Below are positions 7,678 through 39,970 of a stretch of DNA of 64,000 nt, in pieces (within the stretch, counting starts at the first letter, position 1; each line of letters opens with the position of its first letter). The DNA is from Burkholderia sp. D-99. Its GTDB lineage: Bacteria; Pseudomonadota; Gammaproteobacteria; Burkholderiales; Burkholderiaceae. The position numbers and the translations under genes are program-made. The notes beneath the pieces were generated by a model. That model did not search any database, was not told the DNA's origin, and saw nothing but the letters and a program-made list of their open reading frames with translations. The stretch lies in assembly GCF_011605345.1 (NCBI RefSeq), contig NZ_JAAOXM010000002.1:806001-870000 (forward strand). Direction: 5' to 3'.

Positions 7678-9307
7678 CGCCGCTGATCACCGCGCGGATC
7701 GACGCGGTCGTCAGGTTCGCGTCGATGCCCACGCCGAACGCGCTGCCGCGCACGCCCGTGCCGGACAGTTCCGCGATCGCGATCGCCTTCGCATCGGCGC
7801 CCTGCGACAACGCGCGCTCCTCGTAGTGCTGGATGCGCAGCGGCGTGCGCAGCGCGTGCATCAGCGCGTCGAGCGGGCCGTTGCCTTCACCGCGCAGCAC
7901 GCGGCGCTCGCCGTGCACGTCGGCGGTCAGCACGATCGACTCGCGGCCGTCGCGCTCGGTCAGCTCATGGCCGACATAACGCAGCGGCGCATCGCCTTCC
8001 ACGTATTCCTGCTGGAACAGCGACCAGATCTGCGCGCTCGTCACCTCGAGCCCGCTGTCGTCGGTCAGGCGCTGCACGGCCGCGCTGAAGTCGACCTGCA
8101 GGCGGCGCGGCAGCGCGACGCCATAGCTCTGCTCGAGCAGGTACGCGATACCGCCCTTGCCCGACTGGCTGTTCACGCGAATGATCGAGTCGTACGTGCG
8201 GCCGACATCGCTCGGATCGATCGGCAGGTACGGCATTTCCCACACGGCGTCGGGTTTCTGCACCGCGAAGCCTTTCTTGATCGCGTCCTGATGCGAGCCG
8301 GAGAATGCGGTGAACACCAGGTCGCCGACATACGGATGGCGCGGATGGATCGGCAACTGCGTGCATTCCTCGGACGTGCGCGCGACTTCGTTGATCTGCG
8401 AGAAATCGAGGCCCGGATCGACACCCTGCGAGTAGAGGTTCAACGCGAGCGTGACCAGATCGACGTTACCGGTGCGCTCGCCGTTGCCGAACAGGCAGCC
8501 CTCGATCCGGTCCGCGCCGGCCATCACCGCGAGCTCGGCCGCCGCGACCGCGGTGCCGCGGTCGTTGTGCGGATGCACGGACACGATCAGCGCATCGCGA
8601 CGCGCGAGGTTGCGGTGCATCCATTCGATCTGGTCCGCGTAGAAGTTCGGCGTGCCGACTTCGACCGTCGCAGGCAGGTTCACGATCGCCTTGTGCTCCG
8701 GCGTCGGCTGCCAGACGTCGAACACGGCGTCACAGACTTCCTTCGCGAAATCGAGCTCGGTCGCCGTGAAGGTTTCCGGGCTGTATTGCAGCGTGAAATG
8801 CGTGTCGGTCGCGGCGTCGGCGAAACGCTTGATCGTGCGCGCGGCGTTCACCGCCAGCGTCTTCACGCCGTCGCGGTCGAGGCCGAACACGATCTTGCGG
8901 AATTCCGGCGCGGTCGCGTTGTACAGGTGCACGATCGCGCGCTTCGCGCCGCGCAGCGAGTCGAAGGTGCGCTCGATCAGGTCGTCGCGTGCCTGCGTAA
9001 GCACCTCGATCGTCACGTCGTCGGGAATGTGGCCGCCTTCGATCAGCTCGCGCACGAAGTTGAAGTCGGTCTCGGACGCCGACGGGAACGCCACCTCGAT
9101 CTCCTTGAAGCCGATCGCGACCAGCATCTTGAACATCCGCATCTTGCGCGCCGCGTCCATCGGCTCGAACAGCGACTGGTTGCCGTCGCGCAGGTCGGTG
9201 CTCATCCAGATCGGCGCTTGCGTGATCGTGCGCGTCGGCCACATGCGGTTCGGCAGGTTGACGGGCGTGAACGGTCGGTACTTCGTCGCGGGGTTCTTCA
9301 GCATCAT
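7595..9307 (-). CDS. leuA: 2-isopropylmalate synthase, long (yeast-type) form
   Basis: It catalyses the first committed step of leucine synthesis: acetyl-CoA plus 2-oxoisovalerate gives 2-isopropylmalate. At 570 residues it is the longer LeuA class, with N-terminal [20 protein letters not shown] typical of that group. The metal/substrate motif [11 protein letters not shown] is at about 36-46, followed by HPHNDRG and GNGERTGN of the TIM barrel. The C-terminal LeuA regulatory domain ([20 protein letters not shown] region) binds leucine for feedback inhibition in relatives. Tandem ATGs occur at 9307 and 9304, with GAGGA upstream. It stands alone without leuBCD. A leucine-rich leader ORF 240 bases upstream suggests attenuation. 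The 3' end overlaps the convergent LysR gene by 83 bp. Confidence 0.95.
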
Positions 9308-9548
9308 GATGTTCGGTCCTCGGTCGGTATGTCGGGAAACCGCGGCGCGGTGGCCATCCGTCGTGATGGCAGGCTGCGCGCACAGCGGTGAAACGGTAGA
9401 AAACGGCACAACGGCAAAGCGGTACGGCAAACGACAGCCTTGGCGGTTGAGCGACCGGGGACGGAGCGGAACGATTCGGAAGAAAGACGAACTCAGGCGC
9501 CAGTCGACAACCGGGGCCAGGTCGGTGATGCGGGGGAAATCTGGCGCT

Positions 9549-9644
9549 TCAGGAAAGAAGCAGATGGAAAGCGCGCAGCCGCAGACCCAGCCCGGAGAAA
9601 CGGACTAGTAGTCGTAGCGAGAAGAGGGGCTGGGCGGCTTGCAT
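9549..9644 (-). CDS. Leucine-rich leader peptide, candidate leuA attenuator
   Basis: A 31-codon ORF upstream of leuA encodes [16 protein letters not shown] followed by [15 protein letters not shown]. Ten of 31 residues are leucine (codons 7, 10, 12, 13, 19, 21, 23, 28-30). Codons 10, 12 and 13 are the rare CTA, in the run TCG CTA CGA CTA CTA, striking in a genome this GC-rich. Enteric leu leaders likewise stack rare CUA codons to sense leucyl-tRNA. After the stop, GCGCCAG (9541-9547, complement) can pair with CTGGC (9516-9520) or CTGGCGC (9497-9503), which are mutually exclusive. The ATG is only about 7 bases past a good -10, so the message may be leaderless. No clear T-tract terminator was found. 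Confidence 0.6.
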
Positions 9645-9651
9645 GGCCGAA

Positions 9652-9681
9652 ATCAAATCACAGGGTGAGGGGGGCTGTCAA
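9652..9681 (-). promoter_or_regulatory. Sigma-70-type promoter of the leuA leader
   Basis: On the minus strand a perfect TTGACA (9676-9681) is followed after 18 bases by TTTGAT (9652-9657). The predicted start of transcription falls at or a few bases before the leader ATG at 9644. Confidence 0.55.
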
Positions 9682-10259
9682 CGGGCTGAGCGCAAATGGC
9701 GTCGAATTTGATCGTTCAGAATCAGTCCTGTCCGATAGGCGACGCGCAGCCCCGTCGATATGCTTCTTGGGTGCGGCGCCGGTGGAGCCCCTGTTCACGT
9801 TCGGAGTGAGTGGGTCAATGTACTTCGCCGGTTGCCGCACCCCCTTCCTGTTGCGATCGGGTTTCGGCGTGGGCGTTCGGTGGTGGCCGGTGGGCGCGGC
9901 CACACGACAGAGATGCTGATGTTGAAACGACAACGCTGCCATATGCGAGCGTCGAGCGCCTGCCCCGAAACCCCGATTTCCCCGATTTCCCCGCCTTTCC
10001 CGATCCGCCTGCGCGACCGCGCATCGTTCCGAAAAGCGATACACGCGCCAATATCATTTCCCGAATATCCCAAAACACCGTCAATTGAATTCGATTCATT
10101 CAATCAAATCGTATTCACTTTCGATTGACTGAACAATAACCAGCAAACTGCGATTATTTTTTTATTTATTTTTCGACATGCTTTCCAGACCGCGTTTCAA
10201 ACTGCAACCGTTTGCACGACGCGGCGAGACGCCTCACCACTGTTCATCAGGAGGAAAGC
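9682..10259. other. Intergenic region between leuA leader and bclA
   Basis: No convincing gene was found in these 578 bases; the open frames are short and mutually overlapping. Composition shifts from GC-rich (left) to strongly AT-rich (about 10080-10180, including a run of T with few interruptions at 10155-10175). The right half presumably holds the lectin promoter. Confidence 0.6.
10084..10128. promoter_or_regulatory. AT-rich dyads upstream of bclA
   Basis: ATTGAAT (10084-10090) and ATTCAAT (10098-10104) form an inverted repeat around a 7-base centre. TCAATC (10100-10105) and GATTGA (10123-10128) form a second, overlapping one. They lie 130-175 bases before the bclA start and could be operators. 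I could not recognise a cep box. Confidence 0.35.
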
Positions 10260-10649
10260 ATGGCCGATTCTCAAACGTCTTCCAATCGCGCCGGCGAATT
10301 TTCGATTCCGCCGAATACCGATTTCCGTGCGATTTTCTTCGCGAATGCCGCTGAACAACAGCACATCAAGCTTTTCATCGGCGACAGCAAGGAACCCGCC
10401 GCGTATCACAAGCTGACGACGCGCGACGGCACGCGTGAAGCCACGCTGAATTCCGGCAACGGCAAGATCCGCTTCGAGGTGTCGGTGAACGGCAAGCCGT
10501 CGGCTACCGACGCGCGCCTCGCACCGATCAACGGCAAGAAATCGGACGGCTCGCCGTACACGGTCAACTTCGGGATCGTCGTGTCGGAAGACGGCCACGA
10601 CAGCGACTACAACGACGGCATCGTCGTGCTGCAATGGCCGATCGGCTGA
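10260..10649 (+). CDS. bclA: Calcium-dependent mannose-binding lectin BclA (LecB family)
   Basis: It encodes 129 residues, the length of the described cepacia-complex lectin BclA (Bc2L-A), after a strong AGGAGG site. It is a single LecB/PA-IIL domain. The calcium-binding loop EDGHDSDYNDGIV is near the C-terminus, and the terminal glycine (WPIG) is the residue that reaches into the partner's site in the dimer. The sugar-specificity loop region reads FANAAEQQ. There is no classical signal peptide, as in its relatives. In Burkholderia cenocepacia, bclA, bclC and bclB form a quorum-sensing-linked operon; here bclC follows after 118 bases. Confidence 0.93.
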   Translation: MADSQTSSNRAGEFSIPPNTDFRAIFFANAAEQQHIKLFIGDSKEPAAYHKLTTRDGTREATLNSGNGKIRFEVSVNGKPSATDARLAPINGKKSDGSPYTVNFGIVVSEDGHDSDYNDGIVVLQWPIG

Positions 10650-10767
10650 TCGATCGCCCCGCCAATTGACCGACGACCGCCGGGCCGCCTGCAAGGCAGC
10701 CGGGCGGTTGCGTGTCGAACACACGAAGCCAGCCAACCGAAATCCGTTTCGATCTCAGGAGACCGTC

Positions 10768-11604
10768 ATGCCCATCCTTTCGGCATCGATCAACAGCGCG
10801 CCCGTAGTGACATCCGAAGCCTACGTCGACATTCCGGGCCTACATCTCGACCTCGCGAAAGAGAAGATCCGCGACGGCAAGCTGCTCGTCACGCTCAACG
10901 TGCCGACGCCGTATGCCACCGGCGACAACTACCCCGGCGCCTATTTCGCAATTGCGACTGACAAGGGCATCGTCGCGGACGGCTGCTTCACCCACTCGGA
11001 AAAAGCCCCCGCAACCAGCGGACGCTCGCCGTTCACGCTCGTCGTCGCCATCGACGTCGACAGCGGCGTCACGTTCGTGAAAGGCCAGTGGAAAAGCGTG
11101 CGCGGCAGCACGATCCATATCGATTCGTTCGCGAGCCTTTCCGCAATCGGTGAGACGGTCGGGCAATCGTCGTCGCACGGCAGCGGCAATCAGGGGGCCG
11201 AAACCGGCAGCGGCAACACGGGCACCGGGGGCGCCGGCAACATCGGTGGCGGCGGCGAACGCGACGGCACGTTCAATCTCCCGGCCAACATCAAGTTCGG
11301 CGTCACCGCGCTCGCGAATGCGGCGAACGAGCAGACGATCGACATCTACATCGACGACAACCCGAAACCGGCCGCCACGTTCAAGGGCGCCGGCACGCAC
11401 GACGAGAACCTCGGCACCAAGGTGCTCGACTCCGGCAAGGGCCGCGTGCGCGTGATCGTGACGGTGAACGGCAAGCCGTCGCGGCTCGGCTCGCGACAGG
11501 TCGATATCTTCAAGAAGTCGTATTTCGGGATCGTCGGCTCGGAGGACGGCACGGATGACGACTACAACGACGGCATCGTGTTCCTGAACTGGCCGCTGGG
11601 CTAA
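10768..11604 (+). CDS. bclC: Two-domain lectin BclC (TNF-like plus LecB)
   Basis: The ATG at 10768 has AGGAG upstream and gives 278 residues, slightly longer than the 272 I recall for the B. cenocepacia protein. Residues 1 to about 130 (MPILSASINSAPVVTSEAYV onward) match the TNF-like N-terminal domain that binds fucosylated glycans as a trimer. A Gly/Ser/Thr-rich linker follows (about 138-168). The C-terminal LecB domain ends with the calcium loop EDGTDDDYNDGIV and WPLG, mannose-type in relatives. The linker is where the extra residues appear to lie. No bclB follows; a terminator-like hairpin and an AraC-type gene come next. Confidence 0.93.
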   Translation: MPILSASINSAPVVTSEAYVDIPGLHLDLAKEKIRDGKLLVTLNVPTPYATGDNYPGAYFAIATDKGIVADGCFTHSEKAPATSGRSPFTLVVAIDVDSGVTFVKGQWKSVRGSTIHIDSFASLSAIGETVGQSSSHGSGNQGAETGSGNTGTGGAGNIGGGGERDGTFNLPANIKFGVTALANAANEQTIDIYIDDNPKPAATFKGAGTHDENLGTKVLDSGKGRVRVIVTVNGKPSRLGSRQVDIFKKSYFGIVGSEDGTDDDYNDGIVFLNWPLG

Positions 11605-11624
11605 GTAGCGCCATCCTGCCTGCC

Positions 11625-11656
11625 GTCGCCACGCCGCCCGGCGTGGCGACCTGTTT
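11625..11656 (+). terminator. Terminator after bclC
   Basis: GTCGCCACGCC and GGCGTGGCGAC pair over 11 bp with a GCCC loop, followed by CTGTTT, 20 bases past the bclC stop. This closes the lectin operon after two genes. Confidence 0.65.
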
Positions 11657-11756
11657 CAGTGCGCCCGCCGGTCCACTCCCCGCCGCGCCGCAAGAACGAT
11701 CAAATGCCCCCGCCGCCGATACCATATAGTCCGCCCGACACCCTCATTGGCACACC

Positions 11757-12596
11757 ATGAACCCGGTAGGACAAGCACTCTGGTTTATCGAAACCAAACT
11801 GGACAGGGAACTGACGCTCGACAGGATCTCCGCCAATTGCGACATGACGCGCTTCGGCTTCTCGCGCCTGTTCTCGATGAACACCGGCTGGCCGGTGATG
11901 CGCTATGTCCGGTCGAGGCGGCTGACGCGCGCGGCGCACGCGCTGGCGCAAGGCGCGCCGGACATCCTGCACGTGGCGCTCGATGCCGGTTATGGCTCCC
12001 ATGAGGCGTTCACGCGCGCCTTCCGCGATCTCTTCGGCGTCACGCCCGAGGACGTGCGGGCACGGCGCACTCTCGACGGGTTGTCTCTTGTGGAGCCGCT
12101 ACGCATGAAAGAACTGAAACTCATCGCCGTGACGCCGTCACGCTTCGAAGTCGCCGAAAAGCGGCTGATCGCGGGCATGAGCGACCAGTATACGTTCGAA
12201 ACCAACGAAGGGATTCCGGCGCTCTGGCAGGCGTTCATCCCATACATCGGTACCCTTCCCGGCCAGGTCGACGACGTGACGTACGGCGTGTGCTGCAACC
12301 CGGATGCGGACGGCAGCTTCGAGTACATCGCGGGCGTGGAGGTGAAGACTCGCGACCGGTTGCCTGCGCCGTTCCGCTGCGTCGAACTCGAACCGCAACG
12401 TTATGCAGTCTTCGAACACCGCGGGCACATCTCGACGCTTCACCAGACCTTCTACAGCATCTGGAACGGCTGGCTGCCGACGTCGGGGTTCAAGGCGGTG
12501 GACGCGCCCGAGTTCGAACGCTACAGCGACGACTACGATCCGGTTACGGGTGCCGGCGTGCTTGAAATCTGGTTGCCTGTCGAGAAATCCGCGTGA
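11757..12596 (+). CDS. AraC-family regulator with GyrI-like effector domain (Rob-like layout)
   Basis: The HTH domain comes first (FIETKLDRELTLDRISANCD, about 10-29, then LDAGYGSHEAFTRAFRDLFG), followed by a GyrI-like small-molecule-binding domain from about residue 118 (MKELKLIAVTPSRFEVAEKR to the end). E. coli Rob has the same order. The ending GAGVLEIWLPVEKSA is typical of the effector domain. Length is 279. The gene stands alone between the lectin operon and the convergent autotransporter. Targets are unknown; Rob-like proteins often respond to hydrophobic or toxic compounds. Confidence 0.88.
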   Translation: MNPVGQALWFIETKLDRELTLDRISANCDMTRFGFSRLFSMNTGWPVMRYVRSRRLTRAAHALAQGAPDILHVALDAGYGSHEAFTRAFRDLFGVTPEDVRARRTLDGLSLVEPLRMKELKLIAVTPSRFEVAEKRLIAGMSDQYTFETNEGIPALWQAFIPYIGTLPGQVDDVTYGVCCNPDADGSFEYIAGVEVKTRDRLPAPFRCVELEPQRYAVFEHRGHISTLHQTFYSIWNGWLPTSGFKAVDAPEFERYSDDYDPVTGAGVLEIWLPVEKSA

Positions 12597-12678: not shown

Positions 12679-15600
12679 TCACCACGCCCAGCGCACGCCC
12701 GCATTTCCGGTAATCGTGCGCTGATGCTCGCCGCCAAGGTTCGTCAGGTAGCTTACCGTCGCATACACGCTGCCGCGCTTCGTCAGCTGCGCAACCAGCC
12801 CCGCGCCGATCTGCCCGGCCGTCTGCCCGACCTGCGTGCCGATCGTCGTCGAACCGCCGAACGTCGTCTTGTCGTCGGTGCCGAACGAGCGCAGCACGTT
12901 CACGCGCAGATACGGCTTCCAGCTCACGCCGTTCGCATCGAACGCATATTGCAGCCGCGCGCCGATCCGGCCGAGGAAGGTATTGCCGTTGTTCCATGCG
13001 ATGCTCGACACGCCGTCGTTGAAACGATCGAGCGACAGCCATTGCCACACGAGCTGCGCCTGCGGTTCGAGCGTCAGCCCGTAGCCGAGCGCGATCGGCA
13101 GCCCTGCCTCGACCGACCCCGTAAACGCGTTGCCGTTCGTCGAGCCGTTCACGTTGTCGTTCGAATGCGTGCGTACGGTCAGCGCGCTGCCCATCAGCAC
13201 GGCGTCCGTGTACCAGCCGCCCGGGCCGATATGCGTCCAGTAGCCGCCGAGGTTGTACGAGTTGATCTGCAGCGAGCCGACGCCCAGGTCAGGCTGGGCC
13301 AGCGCGAAACCGTTCACGTCGCCGACCGCGCGCGAGAAGCCGAGGAAGAAGCCGTAGTGATTGCGATGGCCACTGGCGCCGGTGTCCGCGTACAGATCCT
13401 GGCCGACCTGCATCCCCCACACCGTGCCGTCGAACGACGGCGTCACGTCGCCCTTCTGCATGATGTTGCTGTTGCCGCCCCACACACGCGCCCATGACGC
13501 GGGCATCGGGCCGTTTTCGCTCAGCAGCCCCTGTTCGCCCTGCCGGTCGTGGAACGTGTCGATCTGCAGCAGCCCGAGCTGGCGCGCGACGGCCGGCGCT
13601 TCGGCGTAGAGCGGCACTTCGGGGCGGTAGATCGGCTCCGGATTGCCGCCGGTGCCTGCATCGGTGACGGCTTCGACAATCGATTCGGGCGTGCCTTCGG
13701 CCGGCGTGACCGGCGTCACGGGCGGCGGTGTCGGTTGCCCCGGTTCGACGACCGGCGGCTCCGGCTTCGGCGGCACCGTATTGCGCAGGTACCAGCTATC
13801 GCCGGTGCCGGTCGCCGCACCGCCCTTCGCGAGGAAGTACGAATATGCGCCGGCGCTCACCGTGCCGCCCGACAGCGTGAACGCGCCCGCGCTCGACGTC
13901 GCGCCGTTGGTCGCCTGCACGACCTGGATGCCGTCGCCGGTCGTCTGCGCGCCCGCACCGCCGACGTTCGTCACCTTCAGCGTGCTCGAACCGCTAGCCG
14001 TACCGCCGCTGACGATCAGCTTGTCTGACGGCGCACCATCGCCGGCGAGTGTCGTGTTCAATGCGATCTTCGCGTTCTGGCCGACGTAGTTGCCGGCGAC
14101 CGTCAGTGTGTTGCCCACGCCACTGCCGCCGAGCTGCACGAGCCCCGCGTTCGTCAGGTTGCCGTTGATCTGGAAATTGCCGGTCGCGCCGCTCGCGAGG
14201 CTGGCAAGTGCATTCGCCACCGAGATCGTGCCGTTGTTCGTCACGTTGCCCGTGACGCTGCCGTAGCCGCCGAGCGTCGCGCCCGACGCCACCGTCACCG
14301 GCCCGCCGCCGCCCAGCGCCGCCGACGCGCTCGTGCCGTCGCCGACGATCACGGTGCCCACATTGACGTTCGTACCGCCCGCATAACTGCTCGTTCCGTT
14401 CAACGTCAGCGTGCCGCTGCCGAGCTTCGTCAGCGAACCCGCGCCCGTGATGCCCTGCGTCAACGTCGAGTTGAAGCCCTGCGTATCGATCGTGCCGTTG
14501 TTCGACGTGATCGACACCGCGCGGCCCGACGCGAGATTGAACGCGCTGCCGAGCTGCAGCGTTCCACCGTTGAAGGTCAGGCTTCCTGACGATGCGCCGA
14601 GCGCGTTGTCGGCCGCGACCGACAGCGTTCCCTGCGTGATCGTCGTGCCGCCCGAATACGTGTTGCCGCCGGCGGCAGAAGGCGCGACCGTCAACGTGCC
14701 TGCGCCGGTTTTCTCCACCGCGCCCGCACCGCCGATCGTGCCCGTGTACGTGCCGGCACTGTCCTGCTGGAAGCGCACGAGGCCGTTGTCGGTGACGGAC
14801 AGCGGCAGGTTCGACGCATTCGCCTGCAGCGTCGCGCCCGCGTTGACGGTCGCGACGACGGACGCCGTCGTCGTGCCGAGCGTGCCGGTGAGATTCAACG
14901 TGCCGCTCTGCACGAGCGCGGTCGAGAACGTGCCGGTGCCGGCCCACGTCCAGTTCGTGCCGGCCATCGTCAGGCTCTGGAAGTTCGTGAACGCGTTCGA
15001 CGCGGTGCCCGTGCCCTGCAGCGTCACGGTGTTGGTGCCGCCGCCGCCGTTCGCGGTGCCGACGATCTGCGAGCCCGTCTGCAGGATCAGCGTCACGTTG
15101 CCGTTGCCGCCCTGGATCGCGGTGCCGCCACCGCCCTGGATCAGCCCCGCGTTGGTGATCGTCGTCGCGCCGTTGGTCGAGCGCACGCCGATGCCGTTGT
15201 TGCTGATGATCCTGCCGCCGGCCTGGTTCGTGATCGTCGCGGTAAACGAGCTGCCGAGCGTGTTCGACACGACCGCGTCGACACTGCCGCCGCTCGTCGC
15301 GGTGCCCGTGGTCTGGATCGTGCCGCTGTTGACCAGCGTGTCGTTGTTGCCCTGCATGTAGACGGCCGGCGCATCGCGGCCGTTCGACGTCAGCGTACCG
15401 CTGTTGGTGATCGTGCCGTTGCCGCCGAGCAGCGACGCCGCGCGCGCGTTGTTGCCGGACGTCGTCACGGTGCCGGTATTGACGATCTGGTTGCCCGCCG
15501 CACCGGGATTACTTTGCCCCCACGCGGCCGTCATCCCGTACGAGTTGTTGCCGGTGGTCGTGATCGTGCCGTTGTTGACGAGCGTGTTGTTGTTGCCGTT

Positions 15601-16014
15601 CGCCGCCATCCCGTCGTTGTACTGGCCCGTCGTCGAAATCACGCCGGTTGCGGCATTGGTGAGCGTATTGCCGTTGTTCACGCCGAGCAGCACCGCGCCG
15701 CGGTTCGCGACGCCCGTGCCGTTGCCGGACATCGACAGGTTGCCGTTGTTGGTAATCGCGCTCGACGTGTCGACGGAAAACGGCGTCGGCGTGGACGCCA
15801 GCACATAGCTGCCCGTCACGGTCGAATCGAGGTTGATCGTCACGTTGGTACTGCCGGCCGCGGCCACGACCGACGGCACATTGGCGCCGGAACACGTGAC
15901 CGTCGTGCCGCTGCCCGGCACGGCGGCCGAACATGCCGCATAAGCCCCCACCGGTATCGCACCGGTCAGGATCGCCATCCCACCCAAACCCAGGTTCCGC
16001 GCCTTTCTTTTCAT
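12679..16014 (-). CDS. Autotransporter (type Va) with PATR-repeat passenger
   Basis: This 1111-residue protein has a signal peptide (AILTGAIPVGAYA, cleaved near residue 26). Its long passenger is rich in N, G and T with repeats of the NSGTI.TTG type, expected to form a beta helix. Two autotransporter-associated repeats are visible (GAGTLTVAP with YSGGTTITQGTLSVA, and GSGTLTLNG with YAGGTNVNVGTVIVG). A proline-rich linker (PKPEPPVVEPGQPTPPPVTP) precedes a C-terminal beta-barrel of about 260 residues ending in Trp (GVRWAW), as required for outer-membrane insertion. The start follows AAGGCGAG. Function is probably adhesion or aggregation at the cell surface, but no known adhesin can be named. 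No protease or SGNH motif was seen. Confidence 0.9.
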   Translation of the reverse strand: MKRKARNLGLGGMAILTGAIPVGAYAACSAAVPGSGTTVTCSGANVPSVVAAAGSTNVTINLDSTVTGSYVLASTPTPFSVDTSSAITNNGNLSMSGNGTGVANRGAVLLGVNNGNTLTNAATGVISTTGQYNDGMAANGNNNTLVNNGTITTTGNNSYGMTAAWGQSNPGAAGNQIVNTGTVTTSGNNARAASLLGGNGTITNSGTLTSNGRDAPAVYMQGNNDTLVNSGTIQTTGTATSGGSVDAVVSNTLGSSFTATITNQAGGRIISNNGIGVRSTNGATTITNAGLIQGGGGTAIQGGNGNVTLILQTGSQIVGTANGGGGTNTVTLQGTGTASNAFTNFQSLTMAGTNWTWAGTGTFSTALVQSGTLNLTGTLGTTTASVVATVNAGATLQANASNLPLSVTDNGLVRFQQDSAGTYTGTIGGAGAVEKTGAGTLTVAPSAAGGNTYSGGTTITQGTLSVAADNALGASSGSLTFNGGTLQLGSAFNLASGRAVSITSNNGTIDTQGFNSTLTQGITGAGSLTKLGSGTLTLNGTSSYAGGTNVNVGTVIVGDGTSASAALGGGGPVTVASGATLGGYGSVTGNVTNNGTISVANALASLASGATGNFQINGNLTNAGLVQLGGSGVGNTLTVAGNYVGQNAKIALNTTLAGDGAPSDKLIVSGGTASGSSTLKVTNVGGAGAQTTGDGIQVVQATNGATSSAGAFTLSGGTVSAGAYSYFLAKGGAATGTGDSWYLRNTVPPKPEPPVVEPGQPTPPPVTPVTPAEGTPESIVEAVTDAGTGGNPEPIYRPEVPLYAEAPAVARQLGLLQIDTFHDRQGEQGLLSENGPMPASWARVWGGNSNIMQKGDVTPSFDGTVWGMQVGQDLYADTGASGHRNHYGFFLGFSRAVGDVNGFALAQPDLGVGSLQINSYNLGGYWTHIGPGGWYTDAVLMGSALTVRTHSNDNVNGSTNGNAFTGSVEAGLPIALGYGLTLEPQAQLVWQWLSLDRFNDGVSSIAWNNGNTFLGRIGARLQYAFDANGVSWKPYLRVNVLRSFGTDDKTTFGGSTTIGTQVGQTAGQIGAGLVAQLTKRGSVYATVSYLTNLGGEHQRTITGNAGVRWAW

Positions 16015-38298: not shown

Positions 38299-39930
38299 AT
38301 GACACGCCCGATCCGCACCGCCACCGCCACCGCCCTCGCCGTTGCCTGCCTGCTGCTCGCCGCTTGCGGCGGGGAAGACTCGACACCGCCCGCGGCCTCT
38401 GCCGACAACAGCGGCTCGACGCCCGCACCGCAACCGCAGCCGCAACCCCGGCCCACGCCGGCCCCCGCGACCTATTACCAGACGAAGACGCCCTACCGTC
38501 CGCAGCAGGACGCCGCGACGTACGAAGCGCCGCCCGCCGGCTACGCGCCCGTCTACACCGAACTCGTCGCGCGCCACGGCTCGCGCGGGCTGTCGGGCTT
38601 CAAGTACGACGGCGCGATCTACGCGATGCTGGTCAAGGCCGAGGCCGACGGCGCGCTGACCGCGCTCGGCGCGCAACTCAAGGCCGATACGTACGCGATG
38701 ATGAAGGCCAATGCGCTGCTCGGCTATGGCGTGGCGGGCATCTCGACACCCGGGTACGGCAACCTCACGCAAACCGGCATCCGTGAACACCAGCAACTCG
38801 CCGCGCGCCTCGCGCAGCGGTTGCCTGCGCTGTTCGCGGCCGGCAACCGGCAGATCGTCGTCGTCAACTCGGGCCAGGATCGCGCGGTCGACAGTTCGAC
38901 CTATTTCTCCGCGTCGCTCGTGGCCGCGCAGCCGGCGCTGGCCCCGGCGATCACGCTGCCGGCCGCGCCATCCGGCTATCCCTCGAACGCGCCGGTCGCC
39001 CAGCCGGCCGGCACCAACCGTTTCCTGCTGTATTTCCACTCGCTGAAGCCGGCCACCGACCTCGTGACCGATGCGGGCAATCCGTACTACGCGACCTACC
39101 AGGCGAGCCAGGCTTACCAGGCCTATGCGAACGACGCGACGGTTGCCGCGAAGCTCAAAGCGATCAAGGCCGCGCCGCAGGCGGCCGAGGTCGCGCAAAC
39201 GGTACTCGCCGCGCTCGTGTCGCCGGCCTTCATCGCGAAGCTCGGCACCGATGGCTACACGTTCGCGAACACGGGAACCTATGCGTTCACGTCGGCGGAC
39301 GGCAAGTTCACCAACACGCTGAAGGGCGACGGCAAGACGAAGATCGCGACGGCCGTCGAAGCGGTCAACGTGCTGTACAACCTGCTGCAGGTCGCGCCCG
39401 CGATGACGGCAGAAACCGGCGGTGTCACGATGGAGAAGTACATCGGCGCGGAGCAGGCGCAGTATCTCGCGTATCTGCAGGATGCCGAGGACTACTACCA
39501 GAAGGGGCCCGGCATCCAGGAAGCGAACCCTGTCACGTACCGGATGGCGAAGGTGCTGCAGGACGATTTCTTCGGCGAAGTCGATGCGATCGCGCGCGGC
39601 GACCTGACCCGCGCCGCGAAGCTGCGCTTCACGCATGCGGAGATCGTGATTCCGTTTGCGTCGATCATGAACCTGAAGAACGTGTTCGTGCCGACGCCGC
39701 AAGCGCAGACGTACACGTCCGCGAACAACCCGTGGCGCGGCGACAAGGTATCGCCGATGGCCGCGAACATGCAGTGGGATGTCTATCGCAACGGGTCGCG
39801 GCTCATCGTGAAGATGCTGTACAACGAGCGCGAAACGGATTTCCAGGCTGCGTGCGACGGCGCGAAGATCGCGCCGGGGAGTCACTTCTACGACTACGCG
39901 GGGTTGAAGCAGTGCTACGGGTATCAGTAA
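38299..39930 (+). CDS. MINPP-like histidine phosphatase (phytase) lipoprotein
   Basis: The ATG at 38299 gives 543 residues. The signal peptide ends LLLAAC with the lipid cysteine at about 23, then a Pro/Gln-rich spacer (PAPQPQPQPRPTPAPA). The histidine-phosphatase clan-2 nucleophile motif ARHGSRG is at about 94-100, and the partner motif FTHAEI at about 445, close to the HAET of multiple inositol polyphosphate phosphatases. Both catalytic parts are present. The expected role is releasing phosphate from phytate or other phosphate esters at the cell surface. A TTG four codons earlier is a weaker start. It is monocistronic, with a hairpin after the stop. Confidence 0.82.
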   Translation: MTRPIRTATATALAVACLLLAACGGEDSTPPAASADNSGSTPAPQPQPQPRPTPAPATYYQTKTPYRPQQDAATYEAPPAGYAPVYTELVARHGSRGLSGFKYDGAIYAMLVKAEADGALTALGAQLKADTYAMMKANALLGYGVAGISTPGYGNLTQTGIREHQQLAARLAQRLPALFAAGNRQIVVVNSGQDRAVDSSTYFSASLVAAQPALAPAITLPAAPSGYPSNAPVAQPAGTNRFLLYFHSLKPATDLVTDAGNPYYATYQASQAYQAYANDATVAAKLKAIKAAPQAAEVAQTVLAALVSPAFIAKLGTDGYTFANTGTYAFTSADGKFTNTLKGDGKTKIATAVEAVNVLYNLLQVAPAMTAETGGVTMEKYIGAEQAQYLAYLQDAEDYYQKGPGIQEANPVTYRMAKVLQDDFFGEVDAIARGDLTRAAKLRFTHAEIVIPFASIMNLKNVFVPTPQAQTYTSANNPWRGDKVSPMAANMQWDVYRNGSRLIVKMLYNERETDFQAACDGAKIAPGSHFYDYAGLKQCYGYQ

Positions 39931-39970
39931 CGTGACGCGGGCATCGCATCGTGCGACCAGCCCGTTTCGC

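Follow-up and report, generated by a model that had tools for sequence, protein, structure and literature searches.

A conserved leucine-codon leader before a yeast-type leuA gene of Burkholderia, probably a leaderless ribosome-mediated attenuator

The window considered here is a 64,000-nucleotide (nt) stretch of the genome of Burkholderia sp. D-99 (contig NZ_JAAOXM010000002.1, positions 806,001 to 870,000), and the element in question is a short, leucine-rich open reading frame (ORF) that lies on the minus strand between a promoter and leuA, the gene for 2-isopropylmalate synthase. The window's LeuA matches the profile TIGR00970 leuA_yeast with 769.6 bits, against a cut-off of 697.4, and the neighbours of its gene are a convergent LysR-type gene and, upstream on the opposite strand, lectin genes, so that the initial annotation was right to call it a stand-alone, yeast-type leuA. 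The features of the region are collected in Table 1.

Two further statements of the initial annotation can be read directly in the sequence: a promoter of the form TTGACA-18-TTTGAT, and a 31-codon ORF with ten leucines, three of them encoded by CTA within four positions. To the promoter we add a TGn extension (9660-9658) next to TTTGAT (9657-9652); the leader ATG follows 7 nt beyond. A strict promoter scan of the window did not list this promoter, because TTTGAT lacks an A at position 2. The three CTA codons are codons 9, 11 and 12 when ATG is counted as 0 (9617-9615, 9611-9609 and 9608-9606). How unusual is such a cluster? CTA makes up 11 of the 1497 leucine codons in 39 ORFs of the window, which were chosen by length and high third-position GC, a selection that itself disfavours CTA, and on that frequency the binomial probability of at least three CTA among ten leucines is 4.6e-5. 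Three CTA in four codons is the sole case among the 552 short ATG ORFs (12-60 codons) of the window, and the 8.7-Mb genome has exactly two copies of the 12-mer TCGCTACGACTA, one in each of the leaders of its two yeast-type leuA genes. The leader peptide has no match in Pfam.

The leader is widely kept among relatives. Window-type leuA was found in 28 of the 61 genomes of the genus that were searched, and a paralogue, about 60% identical, in all 61, in two as partial matches. The window-type leader is intact at 27 of the 28 loci, the exception being L087 at a contig end; the 5' half of that leader is replaced near the contig end, perhaps through an insertion or an assembly break. At each of the 11 best-matching named loci (L005-L015, from Burkholderia, Paraburkholderia and Pandoraea) there is a short ORF carrying three or more CTA codons. 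A search of the family gave matches at E <= 1e-230 in 117 of 299 genomes, and 60 upstream regions were taken, 50 of them hand-picked from the family matches and 10 belonging to the paralogue, from the genus search; some share a contig with a named locus (in the leader region, L130 is L009 and L142 is L010). In 60 of the 60 there is a short ORF in which CTA occurs three times or more, and the paralogous leuA has a CTA leader of its own in 10 of 10 regions. The same test was passed by 6 of 422 control segments of the window and by 0 of 152 segments inside leuA; two of the six contain this leader, and the remaining positives come from two GTG-started frames (39774-39935 and 42268-42113) that overlap larger ORFs and are taken as chance. 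The conservation that had been proposed as a check on the ORF and its leucine codons is found over Burkholderia, Paraburkholderia, Pandoraea and several further genera.

Which part of the leader is constrained? Mean third-position divergence, calculated for 21 of the 28 sequences of the genus, is 0.064 in the leader versus 0.151 in leuA, and CTA is invariant at codons 9, 11 and 12 in all 21 sequences counted. In the leader of B. seminalis (L005), outside the 21, codon 12 is CTC, and a CTA stands at codon 20 instead. The peptides vary by clade (MYRAQTTLSLLLARSTGLGLLLRAS, MITAQFSLSLRLLARSTGLGPLLRACIV, MRSFPNTLRITSGRLARPLSLRLA before the paralogue, and others), and the CTA codons recur. The CTA test was also applied to 69 more distant loci, for some of which the upstream sequence is short; only four of them passed, two from Herbaspirillum and one each from Herminiimonas and Massilia; several others have leucine-rich leader-like ORFs that mostly use CTG. 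One group of leader-like ORFs (L016, L018, L022, L023, L037, L045, L057 and L059) ends in a GLLLR- or GLLLLR-type motif with mostly CTG, not CTA; its genera include Methylobacillus, Cognatazoarcus, Methyloversatilis, Alkanindiges and Denitromonas, and at some of the loci a second hairpin region follows. The leader of the second leuA (contig C8 of the same genome, L002; also L113 and L114) has four CTA codons, and a near-perfect inverted repeat (CGCTACGAC ... GTCGTAGCG) surrounds its last CTA codons and stop.

The placing of the promoter is as regular as the codons. In 55 of 55 window-type leaders (53 distinct), TTGAC lies 36-37 nt before the ATG and TG is found at -16/-17. Over leaders of four types, the distance from TTGAC to the ATG is 35-37 nt in 87 of 87, and in none of these do the 20 nt before the ATG contain GGAG, AGGA or GAGG. 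The set began as 78 leaders, 55 of the window type, 10 of the paralogue, four of g15 and nine of the ten of g24 (g3, g8, g11, g15, g20 and g24 are genus labels); nine of ten initially omitted loci were then added, some of which repeat contigs already counted, L087 having no leader by the pattern used. Because the TTGAC-ATG spacing is fixed and a Shine-Dalgarno motif is missing, a leaderless start is likely, as the initial annotation had surmised; to judge from the spacing, transcription probably begins at the ATG or within a base or two of it. In Burkholderia cenocepacia, 72 genes are described with a start site exactly at the start codon (PMC4603805); "leuA" does not occur in the main text of that paper.

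Downstream of the CTA codons the conservation continues. When 31 of the 53 distinct leaders are aligned, the conserved block spans the ORF to segment R4, and it contains two mutually exclusive pairs, R2:R3 versus R3:R4, both conserved. Paired cells make up 93.2% of the alignment for R2:R3 and 97.2% for R3:R4, values that fall to 12-61% when the segments are slid by one to three columns. The R3:R4 hairpin has a mean predicted energy of about -12.5 kcal/mol in the genus group, with a T fraction of 0.45 in the next 20 nt. A different switch had been suggested by the initial annotation, in which GCGCCAG (9547-9541) has two partners. In the window it can indeed pair with CTGGC (9520-9516) or with CTGGCGC (9503-9497), but these pairings are not conserved, and we rejected them: the second pairing depends on a T that is unique to the window among the 31 aligned sequences, and GCGCCAG itself is missing outside the Burkholderia group of the alignment and from one member within it.

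Table 1. Features of the leuA leader region, in positions of the window
Feature	Position	Strand	Description	Basis
Promoter, sigma-70 type	9681-9652	minus	TTGACA 9681-9676, 18-nt spacer, TGA-TTTGAT extended -10 9660-9652	sequence
Leader ORF	9644-9549	minus	31 codons, ten Leu; ATG 9644 to stop 9549; presumed leaderless start at ATG	
Control codons	9617-9606	minus	CTA CGA CTA CTA (codons 9-12, ATG = 0)	sequence
R1	9607-9601	minus	TAGTCCG; overlaps last CTA; local hairpin with R2	sequence, alignment, folding
R2	9595-9584	minus	CCGGGCTGGGTC; inside ORF, adjoins CTA cluster	alignment, folding
R3	9523-9511	minus	GACCTGGCCCCGG; partner of R2 or R4	alignment, folding
R4	9505-9496	minus	GACTGGCGCC; partner of R3	alignment, folding
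Shine-Dalgarno-like site of leuA	9321-9317	minus	GAGGA, within conserved block GACCGAGGACCG	sequence
leuA	9307-7595	minus	yeast-type 2-isopropylmalate synthase, 570 aa; ATG 9307; single gene, no operon	

Does the position of a ribosome on the leader decide which pair forms? For 52 of the 53 distinct leaders (the genus part comprising 21 of the 28 genus loci and L005), the nascent RNA ending just beyond R4 was folded with a ribosome mask placed at selected codons; L138 was left out, its R3 failing to fit the search pattern. Without a mask the mean predicted probability of R3:R4 is 0.81; it is 0.76 when the ribosome sits at the first CTA, 0.39 when it has reached the last CTA before R2, and 0.88 when it is at the stop. 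The values for R2:R3, in the same order, are 0.03, 0.14, 0.51 and 0.00. With the ribosome at the stop, R3:R4 exceeds 0.5 in all 52 leaders, and when the mask is moved along the ORF the mean for R3:R4 is less than 0.5 only at positions within codons 9-13, the neighbourhood of the CTA cluster. Four of the six groups, namely the genus group, g20, g11 and g8, show the predicted shift clearly, and L008 shows it marginally (0.46-0.50); the groups are not independent tests, because their sequences are related. Masks of +9 to +15 nt all preserve the shift. A generic measure of downstream change, applied to up to four sequences per leader type, has its maximum at the CTA cluster in L085, L096 and L010. 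By folding, the balance of the two structures appears to depend, in part, on the position of the ribosome at the control codons.

The ORF, its control codons, the promoter spacing and the RNA segments are all conserved, and a stall-dependent structural shift is predicted. What would such a leader do? We consider it highly probable that it is a ribosome-mediated attenuator sensing charged leucyl-tRNA for CUA codons, a degree of confidence that attaches to the leucine sensor, and most likely a leaderless betaproteobacterial variety of ribosome-mediated leucine attenuation. Transcription would start at or next to the ATG, so that the leader peptide would be translated as a leaderless message. When leucine is ample, the ribosome would pass the CTA cluster and cover R2, leaving R3 free of it; the R3:R4 hairpin would form and leuA expression would be lowered. 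When leucine is short, the ribosome would stall on the CTA cluster and cover R1, leaving R2 free to pair with R3; R3:R4 would be weakened and leuA expressed. We infer the stalling, the site of the transcription start, and an R3:R4 hairpin that acts by stopping transcription rather than by hiding the leuA ribosome site.

Several observations weigh against this reading. The predicted shift is partial: a ribosome at the last CTA brings R2:R3 above 0.5 in 26 of 52 leaders, and one at the first CTA does so in 6 of 52. In L127 the pairing hardly changes, and extending the mask to +17 abolishes the shift at the last CTA. The generic stall scan is flat up to the CTA cluster in L012, of the window type, where the CTA codons are not singled out, and mixed in other leader types. 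Compensatory changes in the stems, for which the initial annotation had hoped, did not turn up: no pair of R2:R3 or R3:R4 has both sides changed, and RNAalifold on the leaders likewise gave no both-sided change. There is no covariation in these stems because the sequence is too conserved. Neither stem beats its shuffles on any measure, and R2:R3 falls below nearly all of them. The two stems are therefore best described as compatible with the data, without proof from covariation. A terminator scan found no canonical U-tract terminator in the window region, L113, L012 or L010. In a fifth leader type (L167-L176), none of the 10 regions has TTGAC at the leaderless distance; the sole TTGAC in the 700 nt upstream stands elsewhere, and lies at least 66 nt upstream of the ATG where an ATG start is listed. 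For Streptomyces coelicolor, mutations in the leuA leader are reported as inconsistent with classical attenuation, in the account given by PMC1262725. The initial annotation had spoken of attenuation as in enteric leu operons. The conserved ORF and CTA codons bear out the sensor in that comparison; the output is unproven, because compensatory changes and a canonical U-tract terminator are both lacking.

How, then, might the switch act on leuA? When the stalled and finished states are compared by folding, access to the leuA ribosome site differs by group means of -0.01 to 0.05. Access is barely changed by the switch, which argues for a transcriptional output, and we prefer transcription attenuation through a weak (U-poor) or Rho-assisted terminator. 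A special case, in which the same sensor governs termination by Rho in the C-rich stretch of 241 nt that separates the leader stop from leuA and is not translated, is possible, if on the unlikely side. Those 241 nt hold 93 C, 61 G, 55 T and 32 A. This composition would suit Rho, as would an excess of C and T on the transcribed strand and the lack of a U-tract terminator; C-richness is weak evidence in a GC-rich genome, however, and Rho would not by itself need the conserved R3:R4 hairpin.

A translational output, in which the same leucine sensor frees or hides the leuA ribosome-binding site, seems to us distinctly unlikely. It would account for the failure to find a canonical terminator, and the RNA offers it some material: R4 is able to pair with a segment further downstream once R2 occupies R3, and a U-rich segment downstream of R4 can form a long helix with the leuA start region in L009 and L012. 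The nearly equal predicted access in the stalled and finished states speaks against it, equilibrium folding of long leaders being a rough guide. Both of these alternatives for the output share the leucine sensor, and their standing overlaps with the confidence that we place in it.

Might the ORF instead encode a small protein on a leaderless mRNA, its peptide acting in trans like the peTrpL reported from Sinorhizobium meliloti, with the leucine codons incidental? A short leaderless ORF with a LARxSGLG-like stretch conserved in several genera could be so explained. The constraint on third positions (0.064 vs 0.151 in leuA), the retention of CTA although CTG is far commoner, and the dissimilar peptides of other leuA clades that yet share leucine and CTA codons make it very improbable. 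That the ORF arose by chance inside a conserved promoter region can hardly be entertained, since the want of a Pfam match in the peptide is set against a frame and CTA codons kept over several genera and against controls of 6 in 422, this leader accounting for two, and 0 in 152.

One might go further and propose, in addition to the attenuator in the window, a class of leaderless leucine attenuators in the Burkholderia family. It would comprise at least four dissimilar leaders on two paralogous yeast-type leuA genes in several genera, with a promoter fused to the ATG, a CTA cluster, an adjoining switch, and the turning off of leuA without a canonical terminator common to all. We put this forward tentatively and with rather more doubt than belief; the fifth leader type, which lacks the spacing, lowers the odds of a class-wide leaderless reading. 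If the class reading is true, leaderless initiation would be part of the design, with a ribosome on each nascent transcript before the switch is decided. The loci of the fifth type are seven from g3 and three from g11 (G106, G128, G268), and their CTA leaders end in (P/L)IGCRA. Their layout differs from that of the window type, the stop lying inside an inverted repeat of the type GG(T/C)TGCCGGGCCTAG..GTGGCAG. Similar inverted repeats occur at loci of Herbaspirillum, Herminiimonas and Massilia (L072-L074, L082).

Elsewhere in the neighbourhood, the lectin genes divergent from leuA are two of the PA-IIL type, for fucose-binding lectins (10257-11601, plus strand), the second with a Bc2l-C N-terminal domain. 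A large autotransporter with an autochaperone domain and passenger repeats is encoded at 12679-16014 on the minus strand.

How does the leader compare with known systems? The enteric leu genes form the leuABCD operon, and the enteric leu attenuator controls the first committed step of leucine synthesis. That attenuator (leuL; Rfam Leu_leader) resembles the present leader in having a leucine leader peptide with rare CUA codons and competing hairpins. The present leader differs from it in serving a single-gene, yeast-type leuA, in its probable leaderless start, and in that no canonical U-tract terminator was found. The leu attenuator of Salmonella typhimurium is described as having three CUA control codons, whose replacement by CUG made it less sensitive (PMC1183508). 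Rfam, including Leu_leader, gave no match up to E = 5 in positions 8000-12500 of the window, and on 13 related loci its one match, a weak one to Thr_leader in L016, lay outside the leader and scored 27.3 bits where the gathering score is 55.

Actinobacteria, too, have leucine leaders before leuA, known as the LEU element; the proposal there is that the run of leucine codons base-pairs with the leuA Shine-Dalgarno box as part of a pseudoknot or an alternative hairpin (PMC1262725). By that description the likeness lies in the leucine leader before leuA, other attenuator elements being missing there. Unlike what is proposed for the LEU element, predicted access to the leuA Shine-Dalgarno site in the present leader is about the same whether the RNA is unmasked, masked through the CTA run or folded with the ribosome at the stop (pseudoknot-free folding). 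For the leaderless start there are parallels as well: the S. meliloti trpL peptide is described as read from a transcript that begins at its ATG (PMC7298713), and the leader peptide of ilvBNC in Corynebacterium glutamicum as made without a ribosome-binding site (Morbach et al. 2000, cited in PMC4046766). As in those cases, the present leader would join amino-acid attenuation to an ATG at the transcript start or without a ribosome-binding site; the amino acids, genes and bacterial groups differ, and the likeness is one of published descriptions, not of sequences.

A survey with Rfam models is summarized as indicating that amino-acid attenuators likely arose in gammaproteobacteria (PMC3766115). 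In B. cenocepacia, 82 5' regions are stated to give short transcripts by processing or attenuation (PMC5688073), and leuA may be among them. In the open-licence literature, a limited basis, we found no account, for Burkholderia or any other betaproteobacterium, of a leucine leader preceding leuA. The present findings suggest that the Burkholderia family has leucine attenuators of its own that the Rfam models miss. The leuA leader would give a natural example of attenuation that has to be coupled to leaderless initiation, and the dissimilar leaders on paralogous leuA genes offer material for testing the repeated origin of attenuators.
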